Positions 6,989 to 62,326 of a DNA stretch of 64,000 nucleotides are shown here, piece after piece. Under the pieces are notes generated by a model, which saw nothing but the letters and a program-made list of their open reading frames with translations, searched no databases and was not told the origin of the DNA. This DNA is from Halalkalibacter oceani (lineage in GTDB: Bacteria > Bacillota > Bacilli > Bacillales > Bacillaceae_D): positions 310,001 to 374,000 of the forward strand of contig NZ_JAMBOL010000002.1 of the NCBI RefSeq assembly GCF_023715605.1. The letters run 5' to 3'. Made by a program: the position numbers and the translations under genes. Positions within the stretch are counted from its first letter, which is position 1. Every line of letters begins with the position of its first letter.

Positions 6989-7028
6989 GGCCGTTCCCGG
7001 GAAGAGCTCCCAGGGAACGGCCTTTTTT
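6989..7028 (+). terminator. terminator after korB
   Basis: GGCCGTTCCC paired with GGGAACGGCC, then TTTTTT. A classic strong intrinsic terminator that separates korAB from miaB. Confidence 0.9.
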
Positions 7029-7151
7029 CATCCTGTGAGCTTCGCAGGAAAACATTTACTTTCACGACTTCTCCAAATAACTTTTATTGTTTGCAGCGGA
7101 CAAAAAGTTTATAATTATTTATTGTATGATTTGCTTGAAAGGAGCTTTGGA

Positions 7152-8783
7152 ATGAATGAAGACCAACGATTAGGAAACGTAACAAATGCAGATGGAAAAA
7201 CAGCTACGCAGGACTTAAAATCCTCTGGCAGTAGCCAAAAAGATTACAGCAAATATTTTGATTTCAGTGACGCGAAAGTGGAAATCATGACAGATGGAAA
7301 GCAAAAGCTGCGGATTAAGGGCCGGGATATCATTATCAATGAGCAGCCGGATTACAAGCAGGGAAAAAGAAGAGGAAAGCAGGAAACGCAGGTGCTGCGC
7401 CCGGACAGCCTTATTCCCGAGGATATGAAGCAGATCGGTGCCGGAAAGACATTTTTAATCCGGACGTACGGCTGCCAAATGAACACGCATGACTCGGAAA
7501 ATATGGCCGGCTTGCTTCAGGAGATGGGCTTCACAGCGACGGAGGAAGCAGCTGATGCCGATGTGATTTTGCTCAATACATGTGCGATTCGCGAAAATGC
7601 GGAAAACAAAGTGTTTGGCGAAATCGGACACTTAAAAGCGTTAAAAAAAGAAAGACCGGAGCTGATTCTCGGCGTCTGCGGCTGTATGTCGCAGGAGGAA
7701 AATGTCGTCAATCAAATTATGCAAAAGCATCAGCATATTGATATGATCTTCGGCACCCATAATATTCACCGCTTGCCGGAATTGCTGCGCAATGCCCTTT
7801 ATGGCAAGGAAATGGTGATTGAAGTATGGTCGAAGGAAGGCGACATCGTTGAGAATATGCCGCGTGTCCGCCAGGGAAACACACAGGCGTGGGTCAATAT
7901 TATGTATGGCTGTGATAAGTTTTGCACGTATTGCATCGTCCCTTACACGCGTGGGAAGGAACGGAGCCGCCTGCCGGAAGACATTATCGCGGAAGTGCGT
8001 GATCTGGCCCGCCAAGGCTATAAAGAAATTACGCTGCTCGGCCAAAATGTGAATGCGTATGGCAAGGATCTTGAAGGACGCAGCTACGGCCTCGGCCATT
8101 TAATGGATGAGATTCATAAAATCGATATTCCGCGCGTGCGCTTCACAACAAGTCATCCGCGTGATTTCGACGATCATTTGATTAACGTGCTCGCCAAAGG
8201 CGGAAATCTCGTTGAGCATATTCACCTTCCTGTGCAGCACGGAAATTCTGATATTTTGAAGCTGATGGCGCGCAAATATACACGAGAGCAGTACGTCGAG
8301 CTCGCCCATAAAATCAAAATGGCGATCCCGAATGCTTCGTTCACAACGGATTTAATCGTCGGCTTCCCGAACGAAACCGAAGAGCAGTTTGAGGATACAT
8401 TGTCACTCGTGCGCGAGATTCAATTCGACAGCGCCTACACGTATATTTATTCGCCGCGCGAAGGAACGCCGGCAGCGAAAATGAAGGACAATGTGCCGAT
8501 GGAAGTAAAACGGGAGCGGCTGGCTCGTTTGAATGCGCTCGTCAATGAAATGTCAGCGAAGAAAAATCTCGCCTATCAGGATCAGGTCGTTGAAGTGCTC
8601 GTTGAAGGGGAAAGCAAAAAGAACCCTGATGTGCTGGCGGGGCGCACGAGAACGAACCGCTTAGTGAACTTTACAGCACCGAAATCCTATATCGGGGAAA
8701 TTGTCTATGTGAAAGTGACAGAAGCAAAGACGTGGTCACTTGACGGAGAAATGGTTGAATTAGCGGAGGTAAAAGGATCATGA
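7152..8783 (+). CDS. miaB: tRNA-2-methylthio-N6-isopentenyladenosine synthase
   Basis: 543 residues. Radical-SAM methylthiotransferase that adds the 2-methylthio group to i6A37 of tRNAs, acting after MiaA (also in this window). Order: an N-terminal low-complexity extension of about 90 residues, the UPF0004 domain starting at [14 protein letters not shown] with further cluster cysteines ([16 protein letters not shown]), the radical SAM CxxxCxxC ([13 protein letters not shown]), and a C-terminal TRAM domain. ATG 7152 follows AAAGGAG (7138-7144). The longer upstream frame runs through the korB terminator and is not coding. A terminal ATGA overlap couples it to ymcA. Confidence 0.96.
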
Positions 8784-9217
8784 CAAAATCAGCAATGTAT
8801 ACGCGTGAAGACATTCGACTACGGGCGAAAGAGCTGGCGAAAATGATGGCCGAAACGGAAGAAGTAGATTTTTTCAAGCGCGCTGAAAAGCAAATTAATG
8901 AGCATCTGCGCGTGCAGGAGCTGATCGCCCAAATTAAAAAGCTGCAAAAGGAAGCGGTCAATCTTCAGCATTATGGCAAGTCCGAAGCGTTAAAAGAGGT
9001 GGAAGCAAAGATCGACGCCTTGCATGAAGAAGTTGATGCGATTCCGCTCGTGCAGGAGTTCAAGCGCAGTCAGCTTGAAGTAAACAGCCTTTTGCAAATG
9101 GTGTCCAACACGATTTCCAAAACGGTGACCGACGAAATCATCACGTCAATGGGCGGAGATTTGTTAAAAGGAACAACAACGAAAAACCCTTATTTTGATG
9201 GCGGCTGCCAATCGTAG
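8780..9217 (+). CDS. ymcA: YmcA/RicA, Y-complex subunit
   Basis: 145 residues, mostly helical, YlbF/YmcA superfamily. In Bacillus subtilis YmcA, YlbF and YaaT form the Y-complex, which directs RNase Y cleavage and promotes Spo0A phosphorylation. Its start overlaps the miaB stop by four bases, with GGAGG upstream. Only one cysteine is visible, near the C-terminus (DGGCQS), so any iron-sulfur cluster would need ligands from partner subunits. The presence of RNase Y in the same window is consistent but not an operon link. Confidence 0.93.
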
Positions 9218-9256
9218 AAATGAAAGGGACTGGGCAAAAGTAAAATACAACCATCA

Positions 9257-9306
9257 AAAAGCTGCTGAAAAAGTACGATTTTCACTTTTTCAGCAGCTTT
9301 CTTACG
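9257..9306 (+). terminator. terminator after ymcA
   Basis: AAAGCTGCTGAAAAAGT pairs with ACTTTTTCAGCAGCTTT around a short loop. The same arm sequence recurs at 63181-63224. The rest of the 9218-9546 gap holds a partial single arm of the dispersed hairpin family (GGGACTGGGCAAAAG near 9226) and nothing else recognisable. Confidence 0.75.
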
Positions 9307-9546
9307 TTTAGACAAGTATCTTTCTGGATATTTTTTAGGATTTATGAAAAGGAGCTGCGTTAGTGCGTTGTTCGACATTTCAGACATACATATTAGTTGT
9401 GACTCAACTTCTGTGACGATTTTTAGCATGTCTTTCCCCACTCCGGCTTTTGCGAAAAAATTTTAGAGAGCGTGAAAAAATGCGCTTTAACAGGGGAGGA
9501 ATGGGGAATGAAGAGAGGTAGAGAGGAAAGGAGAGAGCATATACAA

Positions 9547-9777
9547 ATGCAACAGTATAAAGTGATTTTTTCATTAGTGAATGGGGAAAAAGAAACAGCT
9601 TATTTTACGGAAAATCCGATATCGCGCGTCAATGATTGGCTAGAACGCAATGACTGCGTCTGGGTCAGACTTGAGGATATGCGATTGAACCTCCAGCATG
9701 TCGTCTCGATCCAGGTCGGCAAATTGGCGGAGGCGAATGAACGGCCGGAAGAGGAGGAAGTCGTCGAATGGCTCTAG
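9547..9777 (+). CDS. small conserved-looking protein, unknown
   Basis: 76 residues from ATG 9547, beginning MQQYKVIFSLVNGEKETAYF. An AAAGGAGAG at about 9527-9535 precedes it. An alternative ATG at 9508 after GGGGAGGAATGG would add 13 basic residues, but these look like ribosome-site sequence, so the shorter form is preferred. The pattern (alternating beta residues, then an acidic C-terminal tail ending EEEEVVEWL) suggests a small soluble beta-rich protein. It lies between ymcA and cotE. I do not recognise a characterised family. Confidence 0.65.
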   Translation: MQQYKVIFSLVNGEKETAYFTENPISRVNDWLERNDCVWVRLEDMRLNLQHVVSIQVGKLAEANERPEEEEVVEWL

Positions 9778-9930
9778 CCGGCTGAAGAGAGTTACAACCA
9801 ACTGGTAAACGATCGGGATAGGGGGCGCGGTTCCGTTCTGGTAAGGAATGGCATGACAACCGCTACGCCACTTCATCCGCCGCTTCGACAGGACATGTGA
9901 AAAGGAAGCGCGCTTTCCACCCGCTGAACC

Positions 9931-9990
9931 GGGCCTGAGACAAAAGGGTAATGCAAACCTTTTGCTTCAGGCTCTCTTTGTCTTTTTTCT
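9931..9990 (+). terminator. hairpin of the repeat family upstream of cotE
   Basis: GCCTGAGACAAAAGG (from 9933) pairs imperfectly with CCTTTTGCTTCAGGC (to about 9972), and a T-rich run follows. It probably terminates the small gene at 9547. The rest of 9778-10172 shows no gene and no sporulation promoter that I can support. Confidence 0.6.
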
Positions 9991-10172
9991 GTACTAAACC
10001 CTTCGCTCAAGGCATATCGTGTTACAGATAGGATTTTGTTTTCATGATCTAGTTTCATGCACATTGGTTATTCGCCCTGCATAGGATGACAGTGAAGATT
10101 TTGACGAACCGCTTAGGCGTAAGCCGTGCCGTGCGTATGACGATGATATGAGAAAGAGGAGGGTTTAGTTTC

Positions 10173-10745
10173 ATGTCTCAGACAGAAAATGGGTTTAACT
10201 ATCGTGAGATTATTACAAAAGCGGTATGTGGAAAGGGTCGTAAATTCTCTGAAACGACTCATACGATTACCCCTGCACATAAACCGTCAAGCATTCTTGG
10301 CTGCTGGATCATTAACCATAAATACAGTGCTGAGAAAAAAGGTGAAAACGTAGAGGTAAAAGGCAGCTACGATATTAATGTGTGGTTTTCCTACAATAAG
10401 AATACAAAGACGGATGTCGCCACACAGACGGTCACGTATACAGATGTCATTGCACTTTCAATGAGAGATGAGAACGTATTATCAGCGGAGATGGACGTGA
10501 TTGCCCGCGCCGTTCAACAGCCAAATACACTGGAAGCGACGATTTCGAAAAACGGAGCTAACGTTGAAGTACAGGTGGAACGGGAATTTATCGTCGAATG
10601 TATCGGAGAAACAAAGGTGGCCGTAGCGGTCAATCCGGACGGCTTACTTGAAGAGTTTACCGAGGATGACTACGTCGACGAAGTAAGCGACGAGGAATAC
10701 GAGAACCTCGACCCGAACTTTCTCCATAAGGAATTTGAAAATTAA
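10173..10745 (+). CDS. cotE: outer spore coat morphogenetic protein CotE
   Basis: 190 residues; the Bacillus subtilis protein has 181. CotE forms a ring around the forespore and recruits most outer-coat proteins. The conserved segments are visible: [17 protein letters not shown] at the N-terminus, the [11 protein letters not shown] block, a central beta-rich body, and the very acidic C-terminus ([17 protein letters not shown]). GAGGAGG lies just before the ATG. The position between ymcA and mutS is the same as in Bacillus subtilis. In Bacillus it is transcribed by mother-cell sigma factors; I could not place those boxes confidently here. Confidence 0.97.
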
Positions 10746-10751
10746 TCAAAC

Positions 10752-10796
10752 GGACTGACTCAAAAGTCGACGAACTTGAGTCAGTTCTTTTTTTGA
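10752..10796 (+). terminator. terminator after cotE
   Basis: GACTGACTCAA pairs with TTGAGTCAGTTC, followed by TTTTTTT. Strong intrinsic terminator. Confidence 0.88.
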
Positions 10797-10843
10797 AAGC
10801 CGCGAAGAATCCACCGTGGATGTAAGAATCGTTCCAGCTATGT

Positions 10844-10849
10844 TATAAT
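10844..10849 (+). promoter_or_regulatory. probable -10 box of the mutSL promoter
   Basis: A perfect TATAAT at 10844-10849, 36 bases before mutS. The matching -35 (TGTAAG at 10821-10826, 17-base spacing) is weak. Confidence 0.4.
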
Positions 10850-10884
10850 AAAAACCACTGATCATGGAACGTGGAGGAACGAAG

Positions 10885-13494
10885 ATGGCACAGCTAACCC
10901 CAATGATGAAGCAATACTTGGAGATAAAGGCTCAATATAAAGATGCCTTTTTATTTTTTCGCCTTGGTGATTTTTATGAAATGTTCTATGAAGATGCCAA
11001 GCTGGCAGCCGAAGAGCTGGAAATTACGTTAACCGGCCGTGGCCAGGGGCAGGGTGAGGAACGAATTCCGATGTGCGGCGTTCCCTATCACTCAGCCGAT
11101 CAATACATATCCCGCCTGATTGAAAAAGGCTATAAAATCGCGATCTGCGAGCAGGTCGAGGACCCGAAGGAAGCAAAAGGCGTCGTCAAGCGCGAGGTCG
11201 TCAAGCTGCTGACGCCGGGCACGGTGATGGACGGCAATCAAATTAAAGAAAAAGAAAACAATTATTTAGTCGCGTTGACTTGCTTTGACGATCAAACATT
11301 CGGCCTTTCCCGCGCTGATTTAACGACCGGTGAATGCGCGGTGACGCTGATCGCAGATTTTGAGGAAGTGATCGCCGATATTACCGGCGCCCAGGCGAAG
11401 GAGCTCGTCGTTGCTGCCGACTTCTCGCCTGACTTACGCAAGCGGCTGGAGGAGAAGTGGCCGCTTACGATCTCCGTCGAGGAGAAAACCGAGCTTGAGC
11501 CGGAGTATGCCGACCTGTGCGCGGAGCTGTCTTCGGACAAGCTCGTTCAAAGTGTCGCAAGACTCGTAAACTATTTAATCCGCACGCAAAAGCGCTCCCT
11601 TGCTCATTTGCAGCGGGTCCGCTATTATGCGACGAATTCGTTTATGAAAATGGACACGCACACGCGCCGCAATCTCGAATTAACGGAATCGCTGCGGGAG
11701 AAAAAGAAGGCCGGTTCGCTGCTCGCCGTGATTGATCAGACAGTCACAGCGATGGGCGGGCGGCTTGTGAAAAGCTGGCTTGAGCGGCCGTTGCTGCAAA
11801 AGGAAGCGATTGAAGAACGGCTCGATGTCGTGTCAGCGTTTATTTCTGCCTACTTCGAGCGTGAGGAACTGCGCGAGCAGCTGCGCTATGTTTATGATCT
11901 GGAACGACTTTCCGGTCGGATCGCCTACGGAAGCGTCAATGCGAGAGAGCTTGTTCAGCTGAAGCGCTCCTTGCAAAGTATTCCGCTGATCAAGCAGACG
12001 ATTACAGCGATTGATCCAAAGCTGGCAGCGCGCTGGTTCCGTGAGGATGAATTCATTGAAAAGCTCGTTGATCTACTCGAAACGAGCCTCGTCGATGATC
12101 CGCCGATTTCCGTCACCGAAGGCGGGATGATCCGCGACGGCTTTCATCAGGAGCTCGATTCCTATCGCGATGCAAGCAAAAACGGCAAGCAGTGGATCGC
12201 CGAGCTGGAGCAGAAAGAAAAGCGCGAGACCGGAGTGAAGTCGCTGAAAATCGGCTTTAACCGCGTCTTCGGCTACTATATTGAAGTGACGAGAGCGAAC
12301 CTTCACCTGCTTCCGGAAGGGCGCTACGAGCGTAAGCAGACATTGACGAATGCCGAGCGCTTTATTACCCCTGAACTGAAGGAAAAAGAAGCACTTATTT
12401 TAGAAGCGGAAGAAAAAATGGAGCAGCTGGAATATGAACTGTTCGTCTCTGTCCGCGAAGAAGCGAAGCAGTACGTTACCGCGATTCAGGCGCTGGCCCG
12501 GGCGATCAGTGAAATCGACGCTCTTGCCGGCTTTGCCGCTGTCAGTGAAACACGGCGCTATACGCGGCCGCAATTTTCACCGGACCGTCGCATTCATATC
12601 GTCGCCGGACGGCATCCTGTCGTCGAAACGGTGATTCCGAAAGGGCAGTATGTCGCCAATGATGTCATCATGGAGGAAGGCCGTGAAATGCTGCTCATTA
12701 CCGGGCCGAACATGGCCGGGAAGAGCACGTATATGCGTCAGCTTGCTCTTTTGAGCATCATGGCGCAAATCGGCTGCTTTGTCCCGGCCGATCAGGCGGA
12801 ATTGCCGGTTTTTGACCAGATGTTTACGAGAATCGGCGCCGCTGACGATTTAGCGAGCGGGCAAAGCACATTCATGGTTGAAATGCTGGAAACACGGTAT
12901 GCGCTGACGAAAGCGACGGAAAACAGTCTGCTTCTGCTCGATGAAATCGGGCGCGGCACGTCAACCTATGACGGGATGGCTCTCGCTCAGGCGATCATTG
13001 AATACATTCATGATCATCTGCGGGCAAAGACGCTGTTTTCAACGCATTATCATGAACTGACCGCGCTTGAAAGCTCACTTGAGCATTTGACAAATGTCCA
13101 TGTCTCCGCAGTGGAAGAGGATGGAACGGTCGTATTTTTGCATAAGGTGGTCGATGGACAGGCGGATCGTAGCTACGGGATTTATGTCGCGCAATTGGCC
13201 GAGCTGCCGGAAGAGGTCATCTCAAGGGCGGACGACCTGCTGCGGGAGCTGGAAAAGGACGGTGGACAAGCATGGCAGAGGCCGTCGCCTCAGCAAGTTG
13301 GTGAACAGCTGTCTTTGTTCGCGGAAGCGGCAATCGAGGAAACAGCGGCGACGACGGAACGAAAGCGCAAGCCGTCACGCCATGCTGAGAAGGAAGAAGC
13401 GGTGTTAAAGCAGCTGCGTGAGAAGGATGTTCTTCATATGACGCCAATTGAAGCGATCAGTTTTGTAAACGAGATGCAACGTTTATTAAAGTAA
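10885..13494 (+). CDS. mutS: DNA mismatch repair protein MutS
   Basis: 869 residues. Recognises mismatches and small loops and, with ATP, recruits MutL. The N-terminal mismatch-binding domain contains FFRLGDFYEMFYEDA (the Phe-x-Glu wedge). Connector, core and clamp domains follow, then the ABC ATPase: Walker A GPNMAGKSTYM near residue 606, Walker B LLLLDEIGRGTSTYDG, and the FSTHYHEL segment. A helix-turn-helix dimer region and a beta-clamp-binding-like QLSLF (about residue 808) lie near the end. ATG 10885 is placed by GTGGAGG (10871-10877). It forms an operon with mutL 30 bases downstream. Confidence 0.98.
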   Translation: MAQLTPMMKQYLEIKAQYKDAFLFFRLGDFYEMFYEDAKLAAEELEITLTGRGQGQGEERIPMCGVPYHSADQYISRLIEKGYKIAICEQVEDPKEAKGVVKREVVKLLTPGTVMDGNQIKEKENNYLVALTCFDDQTFGLSRADLTTGECAVTLIADFEEVIADITGAQAKELVVAADFSPDLRKRLEEKWPLTISVEEKTELEPEYADLCAELSSDKLVQSVARLVNYLIRTQKRSLAHLQRVRYYATNSFMKMDTHTRRNLELTESLREKKKAGSLLAVIDQTVTAMGGRLVKSWLERPLLQKEAIEERLDVVSAFISAYFEREELREQLRYVYDLERLSGRIAYGSVNARELVQLKRSLQSIPLIKQTITAIDPKLAARWFREDEFIEKLVDLLETSLVDDPPISVTEGGMIRDGFHQELDSYRDASKNGKQWIAELEQKEKRETGVKSLKIGFNRVFGYYIEVTRANLHLLPEGRYERKQTLTNAERFITPELKEKEALILEAEEKMEQLEYELFVSVREEAKQYVTAIQALARAISEIDALAGFAAVSETRRYTRPQFSPDRRIHIVAGRHPVVETVIPKGQYVANDVIMEEGREMLLITGPNMAGKSTYMRQLALLSIMAQIGCFVPADQAELPVFDQMFTRIGAADDLASGQSTFMVEMLETRYALTKATENSLLLLDEIGRGTSTYDGMALAQAIIEYIHDHLRAKTLFSTHYHELTALESSLEHLTNVHVSAVEEDGTVVFLHKVVDGQADRSYGIYVAQLAELPEEVISRADDLLRELEKDGGQAWQRPSPQQVGEQLSLFAEAAIEETAATTERKRKPSRHAEKEEAVLKQLREKDVLHMTPIEAISFVNEMQRLLK

Positions 13495-56013: not shown

Positions 56014-56655
56014 CTATATACGCTGCTGGAGCTTGTTCCGCCAATGCTCTGCCAGTTCAGGCACCGTCAGAAGACGTTCGAGCGCGTCACGGGGAACGTT
56101 GCGCTGCAAATAGACTTCGTTCGCTTCAAGCACCGAGACACGATGAGCGTTTTCTTCAAGCAGCTTCAAATCTGAGTCGGCGCGGACGGTTCCTTCTTCC
56201 AATACACGGCAAAGATAGCCGGTGTAGCCGGTTTGCACGAGCCGTTTGAGCAACCCGCGCACGGCGGTGTGCTTTTCGATTGTATGGCATGGCTCTCTTC
56301 CCTGCGTCACTTGAATGACCGCTTCCCCAAGCTGATAAATATCGCCGATATACACATCGCGTTCAAGCCGGTTTTTAACGGTAATATTTTCTCCAAAGGC
56401 GGAAGCCGGAAGCGAAGTGGAGAATTCCTCATTCCACTTTGCATAATGTTCCGCCGGGTAAAGACAGACCGCCCGGTCGCGGCCGCCATGATGCTTTTTA
56501 TCAGCGACATCATCTCCGTTGAAGCCGTCTTTTGTTAAAAAAACCTCTGACACAAATTGTTTTGCGATCCCAGTATACAGTTCTTTGTCTTGCCCGTAAA
56601 CGAGTTGTTTAGGCGGAGCTACGGCGACGTTTGTGATTTCAAAGCTTTTCGACAT
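56014..56655 (-). CDS. MOSC domain protein (YiiM/YflK-like)
   Basis: 213 residues. MOSC plus 3-alpha domains as in YiiM and YflK, which bind a molybdenum cofactor and reduce N-hydroxylated compounds in enterobacteria. Motifs: DKKHHGGRDRAVCLYPAEHY, FGENITV and the cofactor cysteine in QGREPCHTIE. AGAGGGAAG precedes the ATG (56655). No molybdenum-cofactor genes are nearby. Possible role in detoxifying hydroxylamine derivatives, from the family. Confidence 0.93.
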   Translation of the reverse strand: MSKSFEITNVAVAPPKQLVYGQDKELYTGIAKQFVSEVFLTKDGFNGDDVADKKHHGGRDRAVCLYPAEHYAKWNEEFSTSLPASAFGENITVKNRLERDVYIGDIYQLGEAVIQVTQGREPCHTIEKHTAVRGLLKRLVQTGYTGYLCRVLEEGTVRADSDLKLLEENAHRVSVLEANEVYLQRNVPRDALERLLTVPELAEHWRNKLQQRI

Positions 56656-56812: not shown

Positions 56813-57799
56813 ATGAAGCAAAAGGTTCTTTCCTATATGAGAGTCGATGAGCGTGTGCTGGCTGAGCTGGAAAAGGAATTTGACGTGACATCATTTCAAA
56901 ACCATGAGTATGTCGGAGATCCGCGCTTTGATCAGGCTTTAAAAGAAGCGGACGGCATTATCGGCCTTGCCCTTAAGGTGACGAAGGAGCTGCTCGAGCT
57001 CGCTCCGAATGTGAAAATCGTTTCCAACGTCTCTGTCGGCTATGACAATCTTGATTTAGAAGAGCTGACAAAGCGCCAGATTATGGCGACCAATACGCCG
57101 AATATTCTTGATGATACGACAGCCGATGCGATGTTCGGCCTGCTGTTGGCCACTGCCAGACGTATTCCTGAGCTCGATCACTATGTGAAAGCCGGGCAAT
57201 GGACAGTTTCCTTGCAGCCGGAGCAATACGGGATCGATGTTCATCATAAAACATTAGGGATTATCGGCATGGGCAATATCGGCACGGCGATCGCCAAGCG
57301 GGCTCACCTCGGATTTGATATGAAGATTTTATATCATAATCGTTCGCGCCGGACTGAAGCGGAGGAACGGTTCCAGGCGACCTATTGCGAACTTGATGAA
57401 CTGCTTGAACGTTCTGACTATGTCTGTCTCATGGTTCCCGCTTCCAAGGCTACGAAGCATTTGATTGGAAAAGCGGAATTTCAGCGGATGAAGCGAACAG
57501 CGATTTTTATTAATGGCTCACGCGGACAAAATATCGATGAAGAAGCGCTTTATGAGGCACTTGTACAAGGAGAGATTCGCGCGGCCGGAATGGATGTTTT
57601 CACCGAAGAGCCGACCCGGCCCGACAATCCGCTCTTGTCGCTTTCAAATGTAGTGACATTGCCGCATATCGGCTCGTCGACGATCGAATGTGAATATCAG
57701 ATGTCGAAGCTGGCCGCAGACAATTTGCGAAAGGGATTACAAGGACAAAAGCCGCCAACCCTGATTAACGAGGAAGTCTGGAACAGGCGGGAACCATAA
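56813..57799 (+). CDS. D-2-hydroxyacid dehydrogenase (glyoxylate/hydroxypyruvate reductase-like)
   Basis: 328 residues. The NAD(P) motif LGIIGMGNIGTAIAKRA and the catalytic set Arg (NGSRGQNIDE), Glu (DVFTEEPT) and His (LPHIGSST) are intact. The closest remembered family is YvcT / GhrB-type 2-ketogluconate and glyoxylate/hydroxypyruvate reductases. AGAGGGATCAG precedes the ATG. It lies upstream of the GntR-kinase-enolase operon but is separated by a terminator, so a shared pathway (glycerate metabolism) is only a suggestion. Confidence 0.92.
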   Translation: MKQKVLSYMRVDERVLAELEKEFDVTSFQNHEYVGDPRFDQALKEADGIIGLALKVTKELLELAPNVKIVSNVSVGYDNLDLEELTKRQIMATNTPNILDDTTADAMFGLLLATARRIPELDHYVKAGQWTVSLQPEQYGIDVHHKTLGIIGMGNIGTAIAKRAHLGFDMKILYHNRSRRTEAEERFQATYCELDELLERSDYVCLMVPASKATKHLIGKAEFQRMKRTAIFINGSRGQNIDEEALYEALVQGEIRAAGMDVFTEEPTRPDNPLLSLSNVVTLPHIGSSTIECEYQMSKLAADNLRKGLQGQKPPTLINEEVWNRREP

Positions 57800-57931: not shown

Positions 57932-57960
57932 TTGAAAAGTCTGACCATTCATTATATAGT
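57932..57960 (+). promoter_or_regulatory. promoter of the GntR-kinase-enolase operon
   Basis: TTGAAA (57932-57937), a 17-base spacer and TATAGT (57955-57960). Confidence 0.55.
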
Positions 57961-57971
57961 AAAAGTAATAA

Positions 57972-57991
57972 GTTAATTATTAATTGTTAAC
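57972..57991. promoter_or_regulatory. palindromic operator candidate for the GntR regulator
   Basis: GTTAA (57972-57976) and TTAAC (57987-57991) with an AT-rich centre form a 20-base inverted repeat starting 12 bases after the -10 box. A repressor bound here would block early transcription. GntR-family operators are often short AT-centred palindromes, so autoregulation is likely but not shown. Confidence 0.5.
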
Positions 57992-58015: not shown

Positions 58016-58690
58016 GTGACGGAGCTTCTTTTTGCTGAGCAGATCAAGCAAGCGACACATGTTAAAGTCGCGAATTACATTCGAAAAGGCATACTCACCG
58101 GGAAATGGGCTTTTCGCGAGCACTTGAATGAAAAATTGGTCTCGGAGGAGCTCGGCTTAAGCAGGGGACCTGTCCGCGATGCGATTAAACAGCTACATAT
58201 CGAAGGGTTGATTGAGATTCCGGGCAATGGCAGACCTTATGTCGTCGGTTTTTCAGACAAAAGCTTCGCGGACTGGTGCAGGATAAGAACGTATTTAGAA
58301 ACACTGGCGATCCAGGAAAGCGTGGAAGCAGGTGACAGCCGGGCTTATCATGAAATGACCGAGATCGTAAAGGCGATGGAATCCGTCGCCGCCGCTGAGC
58401 GTGAGCCGTATATTTGGCTGGATCTTTATTTTCACCGCCGGCTCGTGGAAAGCAGTCAGAACCGGGCATTATGCAAGCTGTGGGAAACGTTGTCGCCCTG
58501 CTTGTATACGCTGCTGGAGCTAATTGCGGAGCGCTATGATACGCAAAAACAAATCGGCATGCATCAGGAGATTCTTGCTCATCTGCAGCGCGGAGAGAGC
58601 CGGCAGGCGATTGACTGTCTGACGACGCATATTCAAGCTGGCAAGCAGACGGTGGAACAGGTAGTGCTATTTTCGTCCGGACGGGGATAA
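58016..58690 (+). CDS. GntR-family regulator, FCD type
   Basis: 224 residues. N-terminal winged helix with LVSEELGLSRGPVRDAIKQL as the recognition region, then a helical FCD ligand domain with metal-binding-like residues (Asp in LDLYFHRRLVE and His in HQEIL / CLTTHIQ). FCD regulators mostly sense small carboxylates such as glycolate, lactate, gluconate and citrate. GTG 58016 follows GGGAGGAGG. It heads an operon with a kinase and an enolase paralogue and probably responds to their substrate or product. Confidence 0.92.
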   Translation: MTELLFAEQIKQATHVKVANYIRKGILTGKWAFREHLNEKLVSEELGLSRGPVRDAIKQLHIEGLIEIPGNGRPYVVGFSDKSFADWCRIRTYLETLAIQESVEAGDSRAYHEMTEIVKAMESVAAAEREPYIWLDLYFHRRLVESSQNRALCKLWETLSPCLYTLLELIAERYDTQKQIGMHQEILAHLQRGESRQAIDCLTTHIQAGKQTVEQVVLFSSGRG

Positions 58691-58702
58691 AGGGGGAGCA
58701 AG

Positions 58703-59731
58703 ATGATTGATATTAATAATAAGGAGAGCCTGCATAGCTATTTGCTGGATCGCCATTTGATTCAAACGGGAGAACATGTTCAGTACACTTCGTTAACGGG
58801 TGGTGTTTCCTGCAAGGTCGTCAGGGTCGAGCGAAAGAAAAGAAGCTTCGTTGTTAAGCAGGCATTGTCAAAGCTCAACGTGAAGGATGACTGGTTTTCC
58901 GATATTCGCCGCATTTTGATTGAAAAAGACTGTCTGATTGCGCTTAACGAGCTGATTCCCGAAGCGGTGCCTGATTTTGTCCATAGTGACGACGAGCAGT
59001 ATCTTTATGTGATGGAGGCGGCCCCGCTTGAGGCAGAGGTGTGGAAGCAGCAATTATTAGCAGGGCGGCTTGATTTTCAAGTAACAGAGCAAATTGCAAT
59101 TGCGCTCGCCACTGTCCATCAGCATGCGGCAAAAAGTAAGCGTTTCCATGAGCGGTTTGCCAATCAGCAGATTTTTAAAGAGCTGCGGATTTCTCCCTAC
59201 CTGGAGACGGTCAAAGAAAAGCATCCGTCCTTACAAGCGATGATTGACGAGACGATTGCTCTCCTGCTTGAGCAGCGGCTGACGCTTGTCCATGGCGACT
59301 TCAGCCCGAAGAATATTCTCGTTACGAAAAAACGGTTGTATCTTCTTGATTATGAGGTCGCTCACATCGGTCATCCAGCATTTGACCTCGCCTTTGTGAC
59401 GACGCATTTTCTGTTGAAGTCGATCAACGAAAAGAAATGGGCGCCGGCCTATTTGCATCTGATGCAATGCTTTATCGCCAGCTATTTCAAGCATATCGAC
59501 TTTATCGACCGGCAGCAGCTGGAGCGCGAGACGGTCAGATTGCTCGCCTTTTTGTTTCTCGCCAGAGTCGACGGCAAATCACCTGCCGAGTATATCACGG
59601 CAGCTGAAGATAAAGCACTAATTCGTGAGCTCAGCTACGAGATCATCAGCTCCGCTGTCACGTTTCGCGATGTTCAGCACGTCATGTTAAAAAAACGAGG
59701 AGGCTCTTATGAATCCATTTGCGATTACTGA
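58703..59731 (+). CDS. APH/choline-kinase-fold small-molecule kinase
   Basis: 342 residues. Aminoglycoside phosphotransferase fold: VVKQ lysine near residue 51, Brenner motif LVHGDFSPKNILV (catalytic Asp and Asn) and metal Asp in LLDYEVAHIGHPAFDLAF. Length and layout resemble 5-methylthioribose kinase and homoserine/choline kinase relatives, but typical MtnK context (mtnA) is absent. It lies 12 bases after gntR and overlaps the enolase-like gene by 23 bases, so it likely makes the phosphorylated substrate that the enolase paralogue uses. The true substrate is unknown. Confidence 0.88.
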   Translation: MIDINNKESLHSYLLDRHLIQTGEHVQYTSLTGGVSCKVVRVERKKRSFVVKQALSKLNVKDDWFSDIRRILIEKDCLIALNELIPEAVPDFVHSDDEQYLYVMEAAPLEAEVWKQQLLAGRLDFQVTEQIAIALATVHQHAAKSKRFHERFANQQIFKELRISPYLETVKEKHPSLQAMIDETIALLLEQRLTLVHGDFSPKNILVTKKRLYLLDYEVAHIGHPAFDLAFVTTHFLLKSINEKKWAPAYLHLMQCFIASYFKHIDFIDRQQLERETVRLLAFLFLARVDGKSPAEYITAAEDKALIRELSYEIISSAVTFRDVQHVMLKKRGGSYESICDY

Positions 59732-61007
59732 AATAAAAGCACGCCAGGTTTTTGATTCCCGCTCTGTTCCGACAGTCGAGGTTGATGTCCATTTAGCCGG
59801 AGGAGGCTGGGGACGGGGGACGGTTCCGTCAGGCGCGTCAACCGGAAAATTCGAAGCACTGGAGCTGCGCGACGGAGACGCTGGCTCATTTCAGGGGAAG
59901 GCGGTCTATCAGGCGATCGGGCATGTCGAGTCGATTATCGCTCCTGCTTTGCTCGGTTTAGATGCGACCGACCAGGTGGCGATTGATCAATTGTTGTGCC
60001 AGCTCGATGGAACGGAAAATAAGTCACGGCTCGGAGCGAACAGCATACTTGCCGTTTCGATGGCGGTCGCCTGGGCCGCAGCGCGCGGAAGCAACGTCCC
60101 GTTATACCGCTATTTAGGCGGAGCGAATGCGAAGCAGCTGCCGCTGCCGATGATTCAAATTATCGGCGGCGGCGCCCATGCGAGAGCGACAACCGACCTC
60201 CAGGATTATCTCGTCATTCCGGTCGGCTCAACGAGCTTTTCACAGGGCTATGAAATGGTCGTCAATGTGTATCAGGCAACGAAAAAAGTCTTCGAAAGAC
60301 ATGGGAAGCCTTTAGCGACGGCCGACGAAGGCGGCTTTTGGCCGACGGGCTTCAGCACGAATGAAGAAGGCTTGCAGCTACTAGTGGAAGGAATTGAAGA
60401 AGCGGGCTATCAGCCGGGCAAAGAGGTGGCGATTGCGCTCGATATCGCCTCGAGTGAGTTTTACGAGGAGGATGGCAGCTACCGTCTTGCTTTAGAGAAT
60501 CGTTCCTTTACGCGTGATGAGTTTATTGATTATCTGTGTGATTTGGCTGATCGCTATCCGATTATCTCGATTGAGGACGGGATGGCGGAAACAGACTGGG
60601 AAGGCTCACGCAAGCTGACGGAAAGAATCGGTAAGCGGCTGCAGCTGATCGGTGATGATCTGTTCACGACATCAGTTCCCCGCATTCAAAAAGGAGTCCG
60701 GCAAGGTGTCTATAATTCGGTTCTGATTAAAATGAATCAAATCGGCACAATTACGGAAACGTTGGATGCGATTGAGTCGACGAAAAGCGCCGGGTACTTG
60801 CCCGTTATTTCTGCCCGTTCAGGGGAGACGGAGGATGCAACAATCGTTCATTTGGCAATTGCGACAAATGCCGGTCAGCTAAAGGTTGGTTCGGTCGCGC
60901 GATCTGAAAGAACGGTGAAATGGAATGAAGTGCTGCGGATTGAAGAGGAGCTTGGAGCTGCTGCGCACTATGCCGGGAAGGATATTTTTAAGAGGATTTT
61001 AAGCTGA
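59709..61007 (+). CDS. enolase paralogue with altered substrate site
   Basis: 432 residues. Clear enolase family along its whole length. Kept: loop SGASTG (41-46), Glu207 (ADEGG), metal ligands Asp245, Glu289 and Asp316, the general base Lys341 (LIKMNQIGT), Arg370-Ser371 and Lys392. Changed against glycolytic enolases: the metal-loop DSRGNP is DSRSVP, GGEHADNN is GGAHARAT, the QEFM glutamate is Asp166, and the SHRSGE histidine is Ala369. These residues position 2-phosphoglycerate, so the enzyme probably abstracts a proton from a related phosphorylated acid. GAGGAGG precedes ATG 59709. The housekeeping eno is expected elsewhere. The product is unknown; a low-activity enolase is the alternative. 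Confidence 0.9.
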   Translation: MNPFAITEIKARQVFDSRSVPTVEVDVHLAGGGWGRGTVPSGASTGKFEALELRDGDAGSFQGKAVYQAIGHVESIIAPALLGLDATDQVAIDQLLCQLDGTENKSRLGANSILAVSMAVAWAAARGSNVPLYRYLGGANAKQLPLPMIQIIGGGAHARATTDLQDYLVIPVGSTSFSQGYEMVVNVYQATKKVFERHGKPLATADEGGFWPTGFSTNEEGLQLLVEGIEEAGYQPGKEVAIALDIASSEFYEEDGSYRLALENRSFTRDEFIDYLCDLADRYPIISIEDGMAETDWEGSRKLTERIGKRLQLIGDDLFTTSVPRIQKGVRQGVYNSVLIKMNQIGTITETLDAIESTKSAGYLPVISARSGETEDATIVHLAIATNAGQLKVGSVARSERTVKWNEVLRIEEELGAAAHYAGKDIFKRILS

Positions 61008-61159
61008 CAGTTTGCGAGAATGGCAAAAGAGGCTTTCAGAGAAAGCGAACAGTGCCGAGCGTTTCGCTTTAGAGGACCTTCCTTTTGACAGAACGCTATG
61101 TTTTCAGCTCCATTATTGGTATACTTACTGGGAAAACGTCTGGAGAAGGAAGGTCAACG

Positions 61160-62326
61160 ATGTCAGAGGAAACGATTACGAGAATATCTCAAGATGGCAA
61201 GGAATTTATTCTAGTTGGAACGGCTCACGTCTCAAAAAAAAGCGCGGAGCAGGTCAAAGAAGTAATTGAAACAGAGCGTCCGGACGCTGTTTGTGTCGAG
61301 CTGGATCAGCAGCGGTTTGAAACGATCCAAAACCAGGATCGCTGGAAGGAAATGGACATTTTTAAAATTATGAAGGCGAAGAAAACAACGTTTCTATTAA
61401 TGAATCTCGTCATCTCTTCCTTTCAAAAGCGGATCGCCAAGCAATTCGGCATTCAGCCGGGGCAGGAAATGATCCAGGGAATCGAGTCGGCCAAAGAAGT
61501 AGGCGCCGAACTTGTTCTGGCTGATCGCAACATACAAATCACCTTTGCCCGCATTTGGCGCAACGTCGGCTTTTGGGGCAAGGCGAAGCTGTTGACGCAG
61601 ATGATTGGCAGCATTTTTACAAATGAAACGATCTCGGAAGAAGAGCTGGAGAAAATGAAATCTCAGGATATGCTTAACGCCACGCTTCAGGATTTTTCTG
61701 CTTCCTTTCCGCGTTTAAAGGTTCCGCTCATTGACGAGCGAGATCAATATTTGGCGCAGAAGATCAAAGAAGCACCAGGCAAAAAGGTCGTGGCGGTGCT
61801 TGGCGCGGCCCACGTGCCGGGAATTACGGAGGAAATCAAAAAAGAACAGGATTTACAGGCGTTAACGAAACTTCCTCCAAAATCGAAGCTGCCGAAGATC
61901 ATTGGCTGGGCGATTCCGATTATGATTCTGGCCGTTATCGCCTACACGTTCATCGCCAACCCATCAGCTGGACTCCAGCAGACGATTAGCTGGATACTGT
62001 GGAACGGATCATTTGCCGCCCTTGGAGCGGCGATTGCCTTTGGTCATCCGTTAACGATTTTGACCGCCTTTGTCGTCGCGCCGATCAGCTCGCTCAATCC
62101 GTTAATTGCCGCGGGCTGGTTTGCCGGATTTGTACAAGCTTATTTCCGCCGGCCGAATGTCGGTGATCTGGAGAGCCTTGCCGATGATGTCGTTTCTGTC
62201 AAAGGCTTCTGGCAAAATAAAGTGACGCGCATTTTGCTGATTATTATTTTTACGAACATTGGCAGCACGCTTGGCACGGTCGTCGGCGGTACGGATGTCA
62301 TTCGTGTCTTTCTTGAAAATTTGTAA
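61160..62326 (+). CDS. TraB/PrgY family membrane protein
   Basis: 388 residues. The N-terminal soluble TraB domain has LVGTAHVSKKSAEQV, the conserved VCVELDQQRFE and LGAAHVPGI (two GTAHV/GAAHV histidine motifs of the family), and three to four C-terminal spans starting IIGWAIPIMILAVIAYTF. PrgY of Enterococcus limits pheromone activity; the fold is related to Tiki/EreA-type metalloproteases. GAAGGAAGG sets ATG 61160. It lies 152 bases after the enolase paralogue, possibly on the same transcript. The peptide or protein target is unknown. Confidence 0.92.
   Translation: MSEETITRISQDGKEFILVGTAHVSKKSAEQVKEVIETERPDAVCVELDQQRFETIQNQDRWKEMDIFKIMKAKKTTFLLMNLVISSFQKRIAKQFGIQPGQEMIQGIESAKEVGAELVLADRNIQITFARIWRNVGFWGKAKLLTQMIGSIFTNETISEEELEKMKSQDMLNATLQDFSASFPRLKVPLIDERDQYLAQKIKEAPGKKVVAVLGAAHVPGITEEIKKEQDLQALTKLPPKSKLPKIIGWAIPIMILAVIAYTFIANPSAGLQQTISWILWNGSFAALGAAIAFGHPLTILTAFVVAPISSLNPLIAAGWFAGFVQAYFRRPNVGDLESLADDVVSVKGFWQNKVTRILLIIIFTNIGSTLGTVVGGTDVIRVFLENL

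Follow-up and report, generated by a model that had tools for sequence, protein, structure and literature searches.

A recurrent kinase and enolase-paralogue gene pair as a possible phosphorylation-dependent dehydratase for sugar-acid-type substrates

A stretch of 64,000 nucleotides from Halalkalibacter oceani (contig NZ_JAMBOL010000002.1, positions 310,001 to 374,000; hereafter, the window) carries three closely spaced forward-strand genes that encode a GntR-type regulator, a small-molecule kinase and a paralogue of enolase. The first gene, gntR (58016..58690), begins with GTG and encodes a transcription factor of 224 amino acids (aa) in which both the FCD domain (63 bits) and the GntR domain (36 bits) scored above the Pfam cut-offs. 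It is followed after 12 bases by the gene for an APH-fold kinase of 342 aa (58703..59731), which belongs to a conserved set of its own and has an MtnK-like fold. The kinase gene overlaps by 23 bases the gene for the enolase paralogue (59709..61007, 432 aa), whose start is immediately preceded by AGGAGG. This layout, proposed in an initial annotation of the DNA, was confirmed by the coordinates and by Pfam and NCBIfam matches. The term paralogue used there also proved correct, because the genome carries one other enolase at another site: a single further copy (G000:C113), outside the operon, with normal active-site residues and next to an open reading frame (ORF) that, judged by eye, encodes phosphoglycerate mutase.

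The paralogue matched Enolase_N and Enolase_C with 179 and 328 bits and, over the whole protein, TIGR01060 'eno' with 564 bits against a cut-off of 300; with PF13378, the family of MR/MLE sugar-acid dehydratases, it scored 20.3 bits and did not reach the gathering cut-off of 29.4. Residues are given here in yeast enolase numbering, the alignment itself being numbered by the housekeeping protein, whose residue 371 corresponds to yeast 373. The window protein carries the changes E168D and H373A (its own D166 and A369) and retains the metal ligands D246, E295 and D320, the base K345 and the acid E211. Among 25 non-redundant proteins with this signature (hereafter, variants), Glu168 was always replaced by Asp, and residue 373 always by Ala (23) or Gly (2); further changes affected Asn155 (Gly in 20, Ser in 5), Gly207 (Ala in 24), Ala213 (Trp in 20) and Asp383 (His in 20), one sub-branch deviating at some of these active-site positions (S155, A/S/G213, D383). 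In contrast, all 72 normal enolases compared retained Glu168 and His373. The metal ligands, Lys345, Arg374, Ser375, Lys396 and His159 were conserved in all 30 variants, and Glu211 in 29, the exception being a protein on a very long branch from an Enterobacter plasmid (L132). An enolase study assigns the role of base to K345 and that of the general acid in hydroxide loss to E211, and the contacts of 2-phosphoglycerate (2-PGA) that it lists include Glu165 and Glu206 of its enzyme, which are taken here as equivalent to Glu168 and Glu211 (PMC4450660). Because Glu211 and those phosphate, carboxylate and metal residues that were checked are kept while the C3-side residues are now smaller, the expected substrate is a 2-phospho-acid from which hydroxide still leaves, at a C3 atom that bears a side chain. 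The initial annotation had suggested that the kinase makes a phospho-acid that the paralogue dehydrates or enolises; judged from the residues, dehydration would fit, the chemistry of 2-phospho-acids being provided for and the usual C3-side pair being lost.

The kinase belongs to the APH superfamily (PF01636, 57.4 bits against a gathering cut-off of 23.2). Its best curated NCBIfam family was TIGR01767, the S-methyl-5-thioribose kinase MtnK, with a score of 67.3 bits, far under the cut-off of 275. An identification as MtnK was therefore rejected, in line with the initial annotation, in which the kinase was inferred to make a phospho-acid. MtnK is nevertheless the nearest relative by profile (72 bits), and the closest folds to a structure model of the kinase (predicted local distance difference test score, pLDDT, 86.6) were those of MtnK (PDB 2olc and 2pyw), with 16-18% identity and a template modelling (TM) score of about 0.8 by query. 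The catalytic HGD, SPKN and DxE residues were conserved in 28 of 28 aligned kinases and, since they are intact, the kinase should be active. None of the three known glycerate kinase classes (I-III) was among its 7 Pfam matches.

We then analysed how the two genes are associated in other genomes. Among the best 80 of 175 loci related to the enolase, Asp168 together with Ala/Gly373 occurred in 9, and a kinase gene adjoined all 9. The other 71 had Glu168 and His373, and none had the kinase (E<=1e-25, in the available flanking DNA), a few of these absences being weak because flank lengths vary and some contigs end early. In one variant locus (L028) the enolase gene is interrupted by an in-frame stop. 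Starting from the kinase, an enolase gene was present in 36 of 37 examined loci, some of them closely related to one another (three from Rhizobium, two each from Haladaptatus and Enterobacter, and two from Rhodococcus with the same cluster). The paired genes lay on the same strand in 30 cases, within 150 bases of each other in 29 and overlapping in 21; the kinase came first in 27 and the enolase in 3, and 6 pairs were on opposite strands. Of the 36 paired enolases, 35 showed Asp168 together with Ala/Gly373; in the remaining one (L135) Asp168 alone was read. The pair was found in five bacterial phyla and in Halobacteria, from gut bacteria to haloarchaea. Thus, the expectation of the initial annotation that kinase and enolase would be conserved together across genomes was borne out.

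Occurrence of the pair is patchy. A close orthologue was found in 2 of 13 members of the genus of the window and in 2 of 60 relatives. With counts that include the centre genome itself, the kinase (E<=1e-30) was detected in 2/394 sampled genomes of the order and 1/391 of the class of G064, in 4/101 of the family and 1/247 of the phylum of G063, in 1/380 of the class of G1174 and in 4/383 of the class of the window genome (G000). It also matched 34 plasmid records, 20 of which were examined with 9 kb flanks and one with 1.5 kb flanks; two further ones are annotated mtnK. The enolase matched 330 and 341 plasmid records, of which three were taken into the tree as non-variants. Among viral contigs, 26 pattern matches yielded 0 confirmed cases.

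Some loci stand out. In the Enterobacter plasmids L132 and L135 (about 7193-9918), the family kinase is divergent from a gene for a very divergent enolase-like 'hypothetical protein'. The L132 protein carries Lys in place of E211; genes for a U32 peptidase, an aminotransferase and an MFS protein come next in this locus and may form a biosynthetic cluster. In L135 the end of the kinase gene overlaps a gene for an IS1 transposase. In L155 (7147-8995), the enolase paralogue is truncated and what is left of an MR/MLE gene follows directly, a layout that could have come from a deletion fusing two enolase-superfamily enzymes.

In an unrooted tree built from 30 variants together with 20 further enolases, the two groups were split by a single branch with support of 100/99 that was present in all 200 bootstrap trees; very long branches led to L132 and to a Halorubrum protein, L140, one of the three non-variant plasmid entries. 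The latter (Halorubrum plasmid, 1492-2754) belongs to the enolase family, has Glu as residue 373 and is altered at other residues too, and its gene lies beside an aldehyde dehydrogenase gene and a DUF4147 gene (MOFRL glycerate kinase family). Pairwise distances of kinases and enolases were correlated over 28 loci (r=0.78, reached in 0 of 9999 permutations; 0.80 without L132). The patchy occurrence and the spread over phyla suggest that the pair has been transferred between lineages as a unit. A plain duplicate of enolase is made unlikely by the residue signature together with the separate branch.

Within the window, a gene for a GhrB-like D-2-hydroxyacid dehydrogenase (56813..57799, forward strand) ends 216 bases 5' of gntR (PF02826, 210 bits; GhrB model, 386 bits, the cut-off of 492 not being reached). 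The same gene adjoins the operon in L023; it is possibly an upstream partner of the operon and possibly transcribed on its own. Between it and gntR lie a sigma-A-like promoter, TTGAAA-17-TATAGT (57932..57960, forward strand, 10/12 match; 5 promoter-like sites were found in the region against 2.9 expected by chance), and an operator-like near-palindromic 20-mer, GTTAATTATTAATTGTTAAC (57972..57991, forward strand), which falls in a conserved alignment block and is a candidate site for the GntR protein. Both elements are kept in L023 and L004. L023 is a Halalkalibacter oceani record whose enolase is 94% identical to the window paralogue, and the two loci apparently belong to one genome (G007 and G060 have the same coordinates), so they count as one independent comparison. 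A YiiM/MOSC gene (56014-56655, reverse strand) and a TraB/PrgY-family gene (61085-62326) border the operon, and neither appears connected with it.

Since the neighbouring genes in other hosts include aldolases, DgoK and a diketo hydrolase, they point to 2-keto-3-deoxy sugar acids as the class of product. In Flavobacteriaceae bacterium CP2B (L048), kinase (6995-8008), enolase (7995-9281), a DgoK-like gene (9278-10282; DGOK, 203 bits) and a KDPG/KHG aldolase gene (10246-10917; 132 bits, and TIGR01182 168.8 bits, above its cut-off of 156) all overlap, with no dehydratase among the neighbours tested. On a Paracoccus seriniphilus plasmid the order is kinase, enolase, FAH hydrolase, SDRs, sugar ABC transporter and XylB-like SDR (332 bits, cut-off 400), with a divergent LacI gene; the closest solved relative of the hydrolase is L-2,4-diketo-3-deoxyrhamnonate hydrolase (276 bits, the next at 184). 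Roseibium aggregatum has a similar gene order by annotation, its hydrolase (FAH) and one SDR having been tested by profile; the hydrolase scored 342 bits with the diketo-hydrolase NCBIfam model (cut-off 500). HpcH/HpaI (GarL-like) aldolases adjoin the pair in L121 and in the clostridial or spirochaete loci L028, L117 and L118, LarA-like genes occur in two further loci of that group, L024 and L115, and FCD GntR genes lie close to the pair in L117, L118 and L124. In 7 of 10 clostridial and spirochaete loci (L025, L026, L027, L116, L117, L118 and L119, the last being another contig of the genome of L029) an MtaA-like URO-D gene is close to the pair. Haloarchaeal loci L121, L125 and L134 combine kinase and enolase with cupin, MR/MLE and KARI-like genes, and L121 and L134 also with an aldolase-type gene. 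Read from these gene sets, the L048, Paracoccus/Roseibium and clostridial or spirochaete contexts would use a 2-keto-3-deoxy acid and, as far as seen, do so without the enzyme that produces it.

In agreement with this, enolases excepted, no IlvD/EDD or MR/MLE gene above the family cut-off was found within 20 kb of the pair in 14 genomes, several contigs being short and UxaA/GarD and UxuA not being part of the search. The nearest such genes lay at about 30 kb (G549), 38 kb (G513), 46 kb (G066) and 69 kb (G064). In G061, a weak MR/MLE hit located about 8 kb from the pair proved to be the housekeeping enolase (G061:C13; L157, 749-2044; Glu168, His373), which shares the neighbourhood of the pair.

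We propose that the two enzymes of the pair act together as a dehydratase that depends on phosphorylation and serves 2,3-dihydroxy acids of the aldonate type, larger than glycerate, a reading to which we assign a probability of just under one half (about 0.48). The kinase would phosphorylate the C2 hydroxyl of an aldonate-type acid; in the paralogue, with its opened C3 side, Lys345 would then abstract the C2 proton and Glu211 expel the C3 hydroxyl. The product would be the enol-phosphate of a 2-keto-3-deoxy acid, so that the pair would replace a sugar-acid dehydratase, and the keto acid would pass, depending on the host, to an aldolase, to a keto-deoxy-acid kinase and an aldolase, or to a 4-dehydrogenase and a diketo hydrolase. 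In the window, the GhrB-like dehydrogenase may reduce a 2-keto acid to provide the hydroxy acid, and the FCD protein may sense a small acid. ATP could be recovered from such an enol phosphate, either in a step like that of pyruvate kinase or by reversal of the kinase reaction; that the phosphate leaves through the housekeeping pyruvate kinase, which is present in G000, or through the reversed kinase is a guess. More tentatively still, we suggest that the pair represents a scattered type of sugar-acid dehydration, C2 phosphorylation followed by elimination of the C3 hydroxyl by an enolase-family enzyme, carried by a clade of enolase proper rather than of MR/MLE that is present in haloarchaea and in no fewer than five phyla of bacteria.

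Several observations weigh against this proposal. The paralogue scores as an ordinary enolase under TIGR01060, and the placement of Glu168 and His373 near the C3 hydroxyl is carried over from known enolase structures. In L154, the sole enolase-free locus among the 37, the kinase gene adjoins MR/MLE genes, and a broken SDR gene is present as well; MR/MLE genes are also found near the pair in Haladaptatus, Halomarina and L155. No phosphatase or pyruvate kinase that could consume the enol-phosphate was consistently linked to the pair across loci. In Persicobacter an aldehyde dehydrogenase gene directly 5' of the kinase gene fits glycerate-like acids, and PEP carboxylase genes in Rhizobium and Rhodococcus clusters suit phosphoenolpyruvate (PEP) itself as the product.

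The main rival, a serious one although less probable than the dehydratase, is a glycerate module: the kinase would represent a fourth class of glycerate 2-kinase, of the APH type, and the paralogue would be an enolase dedicated to turning 2-phosphoglycerate (perhaps in its L form) into PEP. Genes of the hydroxypyruvate/2-hydroxyacid reductase type are indeed close to the pair, D-2-hydroxyacid dehydrogenase genes adjoining it or lying within 7 kb in L117, L120, L122, L125, L128, L144 and L146. Clostridial and spirochaete loci also carry CdaR-type regulators (L025, L026, L027 and L119) and a GntP permease (L025; ORFs of equal size, identified by size alone, in L026, L027 and L116). PEP carboxylase is encoded in three Rhizobium clusters (L120, L122 and L133) and about 18 kb off in Rhodococcus L138. 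As a check on whether this enzyme has been repurposed, three copies were compared with the normal signature and matched patterns 1 and 2, the glycine loop and QGE; ad hoc patterns for R699 and R713 matched nothing, so that the check covers the signature in part. In addition, neighbouring aldolases or hydrolases could release glyceraldehyde or glycerate, and a further kinase class is conceivable, as the three known ones are mutually unrelated (PMC2063504). However, both residues on the side of the C3 hydroxyl are altered in the variants, and from mutant work on enolase such changes should impair turnover of 2-phosphoglycerate. A housekeeping enolase would suffice for the task, and in G061 it even lies about 8 kb from the pair; in L155 an ordinary glycerate kinase is already encoded at a distance of 5.5 kb from the enolase; and in L048 the DgoK-like kinase and the aldolase should yield glyceraldehyde-3-phosphate, not glycerate.

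Substrates might alternatively differ between clades, with no single substrate class and with an aromatic-type pathway in Rhizobium, Rhodococcus, Sphingobium and Paraburkholderia, which we regard as clearly less probable than the glycerate module. Around the pair these bacteria have genes for an HpaD-like dioxygenase (in L120, with 272 bits against a cut-off of 321; L130 and L144 carry relatives), for cupins, for D-2-hydroxyacid dehydrogenase-type enzymes and for medium-chain alcohol dehydrogenases, and FAH genes occur near it in Rhodococcus, Sphingobium and Paraburkholderia. L146 contains O-demethylase-like and one-carbon genes, and the variant sub-branch with S155, A/S/G213 and D383 would also be accommodated. 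Yet the core signature, D168 with A/G373, is common to the clades, and a single type of reaction may take place on a range of side chains, as the proposed dehydratase would allow. As a separate observation, five loci from Rhizobium, Rhodococcus and Paraburkholderia (L120, L122, L133, L138 and L144) share a conserved aromatic-type set around the pair that consists of an HpaD-like or VOC dioxygenase, a cupin, a medium-chain alcohol dehydrogenase and a 3-hydroxybutyryl-CoA dehydrogenase, with PEP carboxylase in 4 of the 5.

A third and very improbable alternative is that sulfite leaves from C3, the kinase making 2-phospho-3-sulfolactate and the paralogue expelling sulfite to give PEP. A gene for a TauE-type exporter lies directly 3' of the enolase gene in L115, with a second one, identified by eye, farther along, and L116 has a Sulf_transp gene (52.7 bits), which stands beside an AIRS-type gene and may instead belong to selenium metabolism. 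A dehydrogenase in L028 matched best, with 274 bits against a cut-off of 500, the model of L-sulfolactate dehydrogenase. The region 6 to 14 kb past the end of the Paracoccus operon reads like a sulfolactate cluster, with a UxaA-type pair (so annotated, without an NCBIfam match at 1e-40), dehydrogenases of the hydroxyacid and Ldh types and a sulfate exporter; with it Paracoccus would already possess a sulfolactate lyase. Sulfur genes were not noticed at most other loci, in the course of work that included no systematic search for them. We keep this alternative low because Glu211 is conserved: with that residue kept in 29 of 30 variants and an acid still at 168, a negatively charged sulfonate would neighbour acids. 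The Paracoccus record L137 (1035-8666) itself holds the UxaA-type pair and the hydroxyacid and Ldh-type dehydrogenases together with a tripartite transporter and the sulfate exporter, a set that we take to resemble a sulfolactate degradation cluster.

Should the proposed dehydratase prove right, enolase proper would have a second, non-glycolytic clade with a kinase of its own, and sugar-acid catabolism would gain a phosphorylated dehydration route. The signature of Asp168 and Ala/Gly373 would then help to tell the two kinds of enolase apart in genomes, where the paralogues hide in glycolysis maps because many of them are annotated phosphopyruvate hydratase in public records. The pair would also make it possible to test cleanly how substrate size is governed by the C3 pocket of enolase. 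The initial annotation knew of no described pathway with this gene set, and we likewise found no description of the kinase-enolase pair or of such a route in full-text searches of an open-licence library, which leaves out most subscription journals.

The pair can be compared with several known systems. With carboxyphosphonoenolpyruvate synthase of phosphinothricin biosynthesis, the paralogue shares membership of the enolase family in a non-glycolytic role; that enzyme, however, serves secondary metabolism and is not known to have a kinase partner of this kind. MtnK is the nearest curated family of the window kinase and shares its fold, but the kinase scores under the family cut-off and its partner is an enolase. 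Like phosphopyruvate hydratase (TIGR01060), the paralogues match over their full length and keep the metal ligands, Lys345, Glu211, Arg374, Ser375 and Lys396; unlike it, they have Asp168 and Ala/Gly373, mostly changed Asn155, Gly207 and Ala213, a separate branch and a kinase partner. The succession of glycerate kinase and enolase likewise runs through a 2-phospho-acid, and Halorubrum L140 has an enolase-family gene beside a DUF4147 gene, whereas the pair has an APH-type kinase and a remodelled C3 side. The LRA-type diketo-hydrolase pathway for L-rhamnose and L-fucose is mirrored by the SDRs and the LRA6-like hydrolase of Paracoccus and, partly by annotation, of Roseibium, but no sugar-acid dehydratase is present in the Paracoccus operon, where the pair comes ahead of the hydrolase. 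Finally, L048 resembles the De Ley-Doudoroff galactonate pathway (DgoD-DgoK-DgoA) in that genes for a DgoK-like kinase and an aldolase of the KDPG type come directly after the pair; in contrast to that pathway, none of the neighbours tested is a dehydratase, and its place is occupied by the kinase and the enolase.

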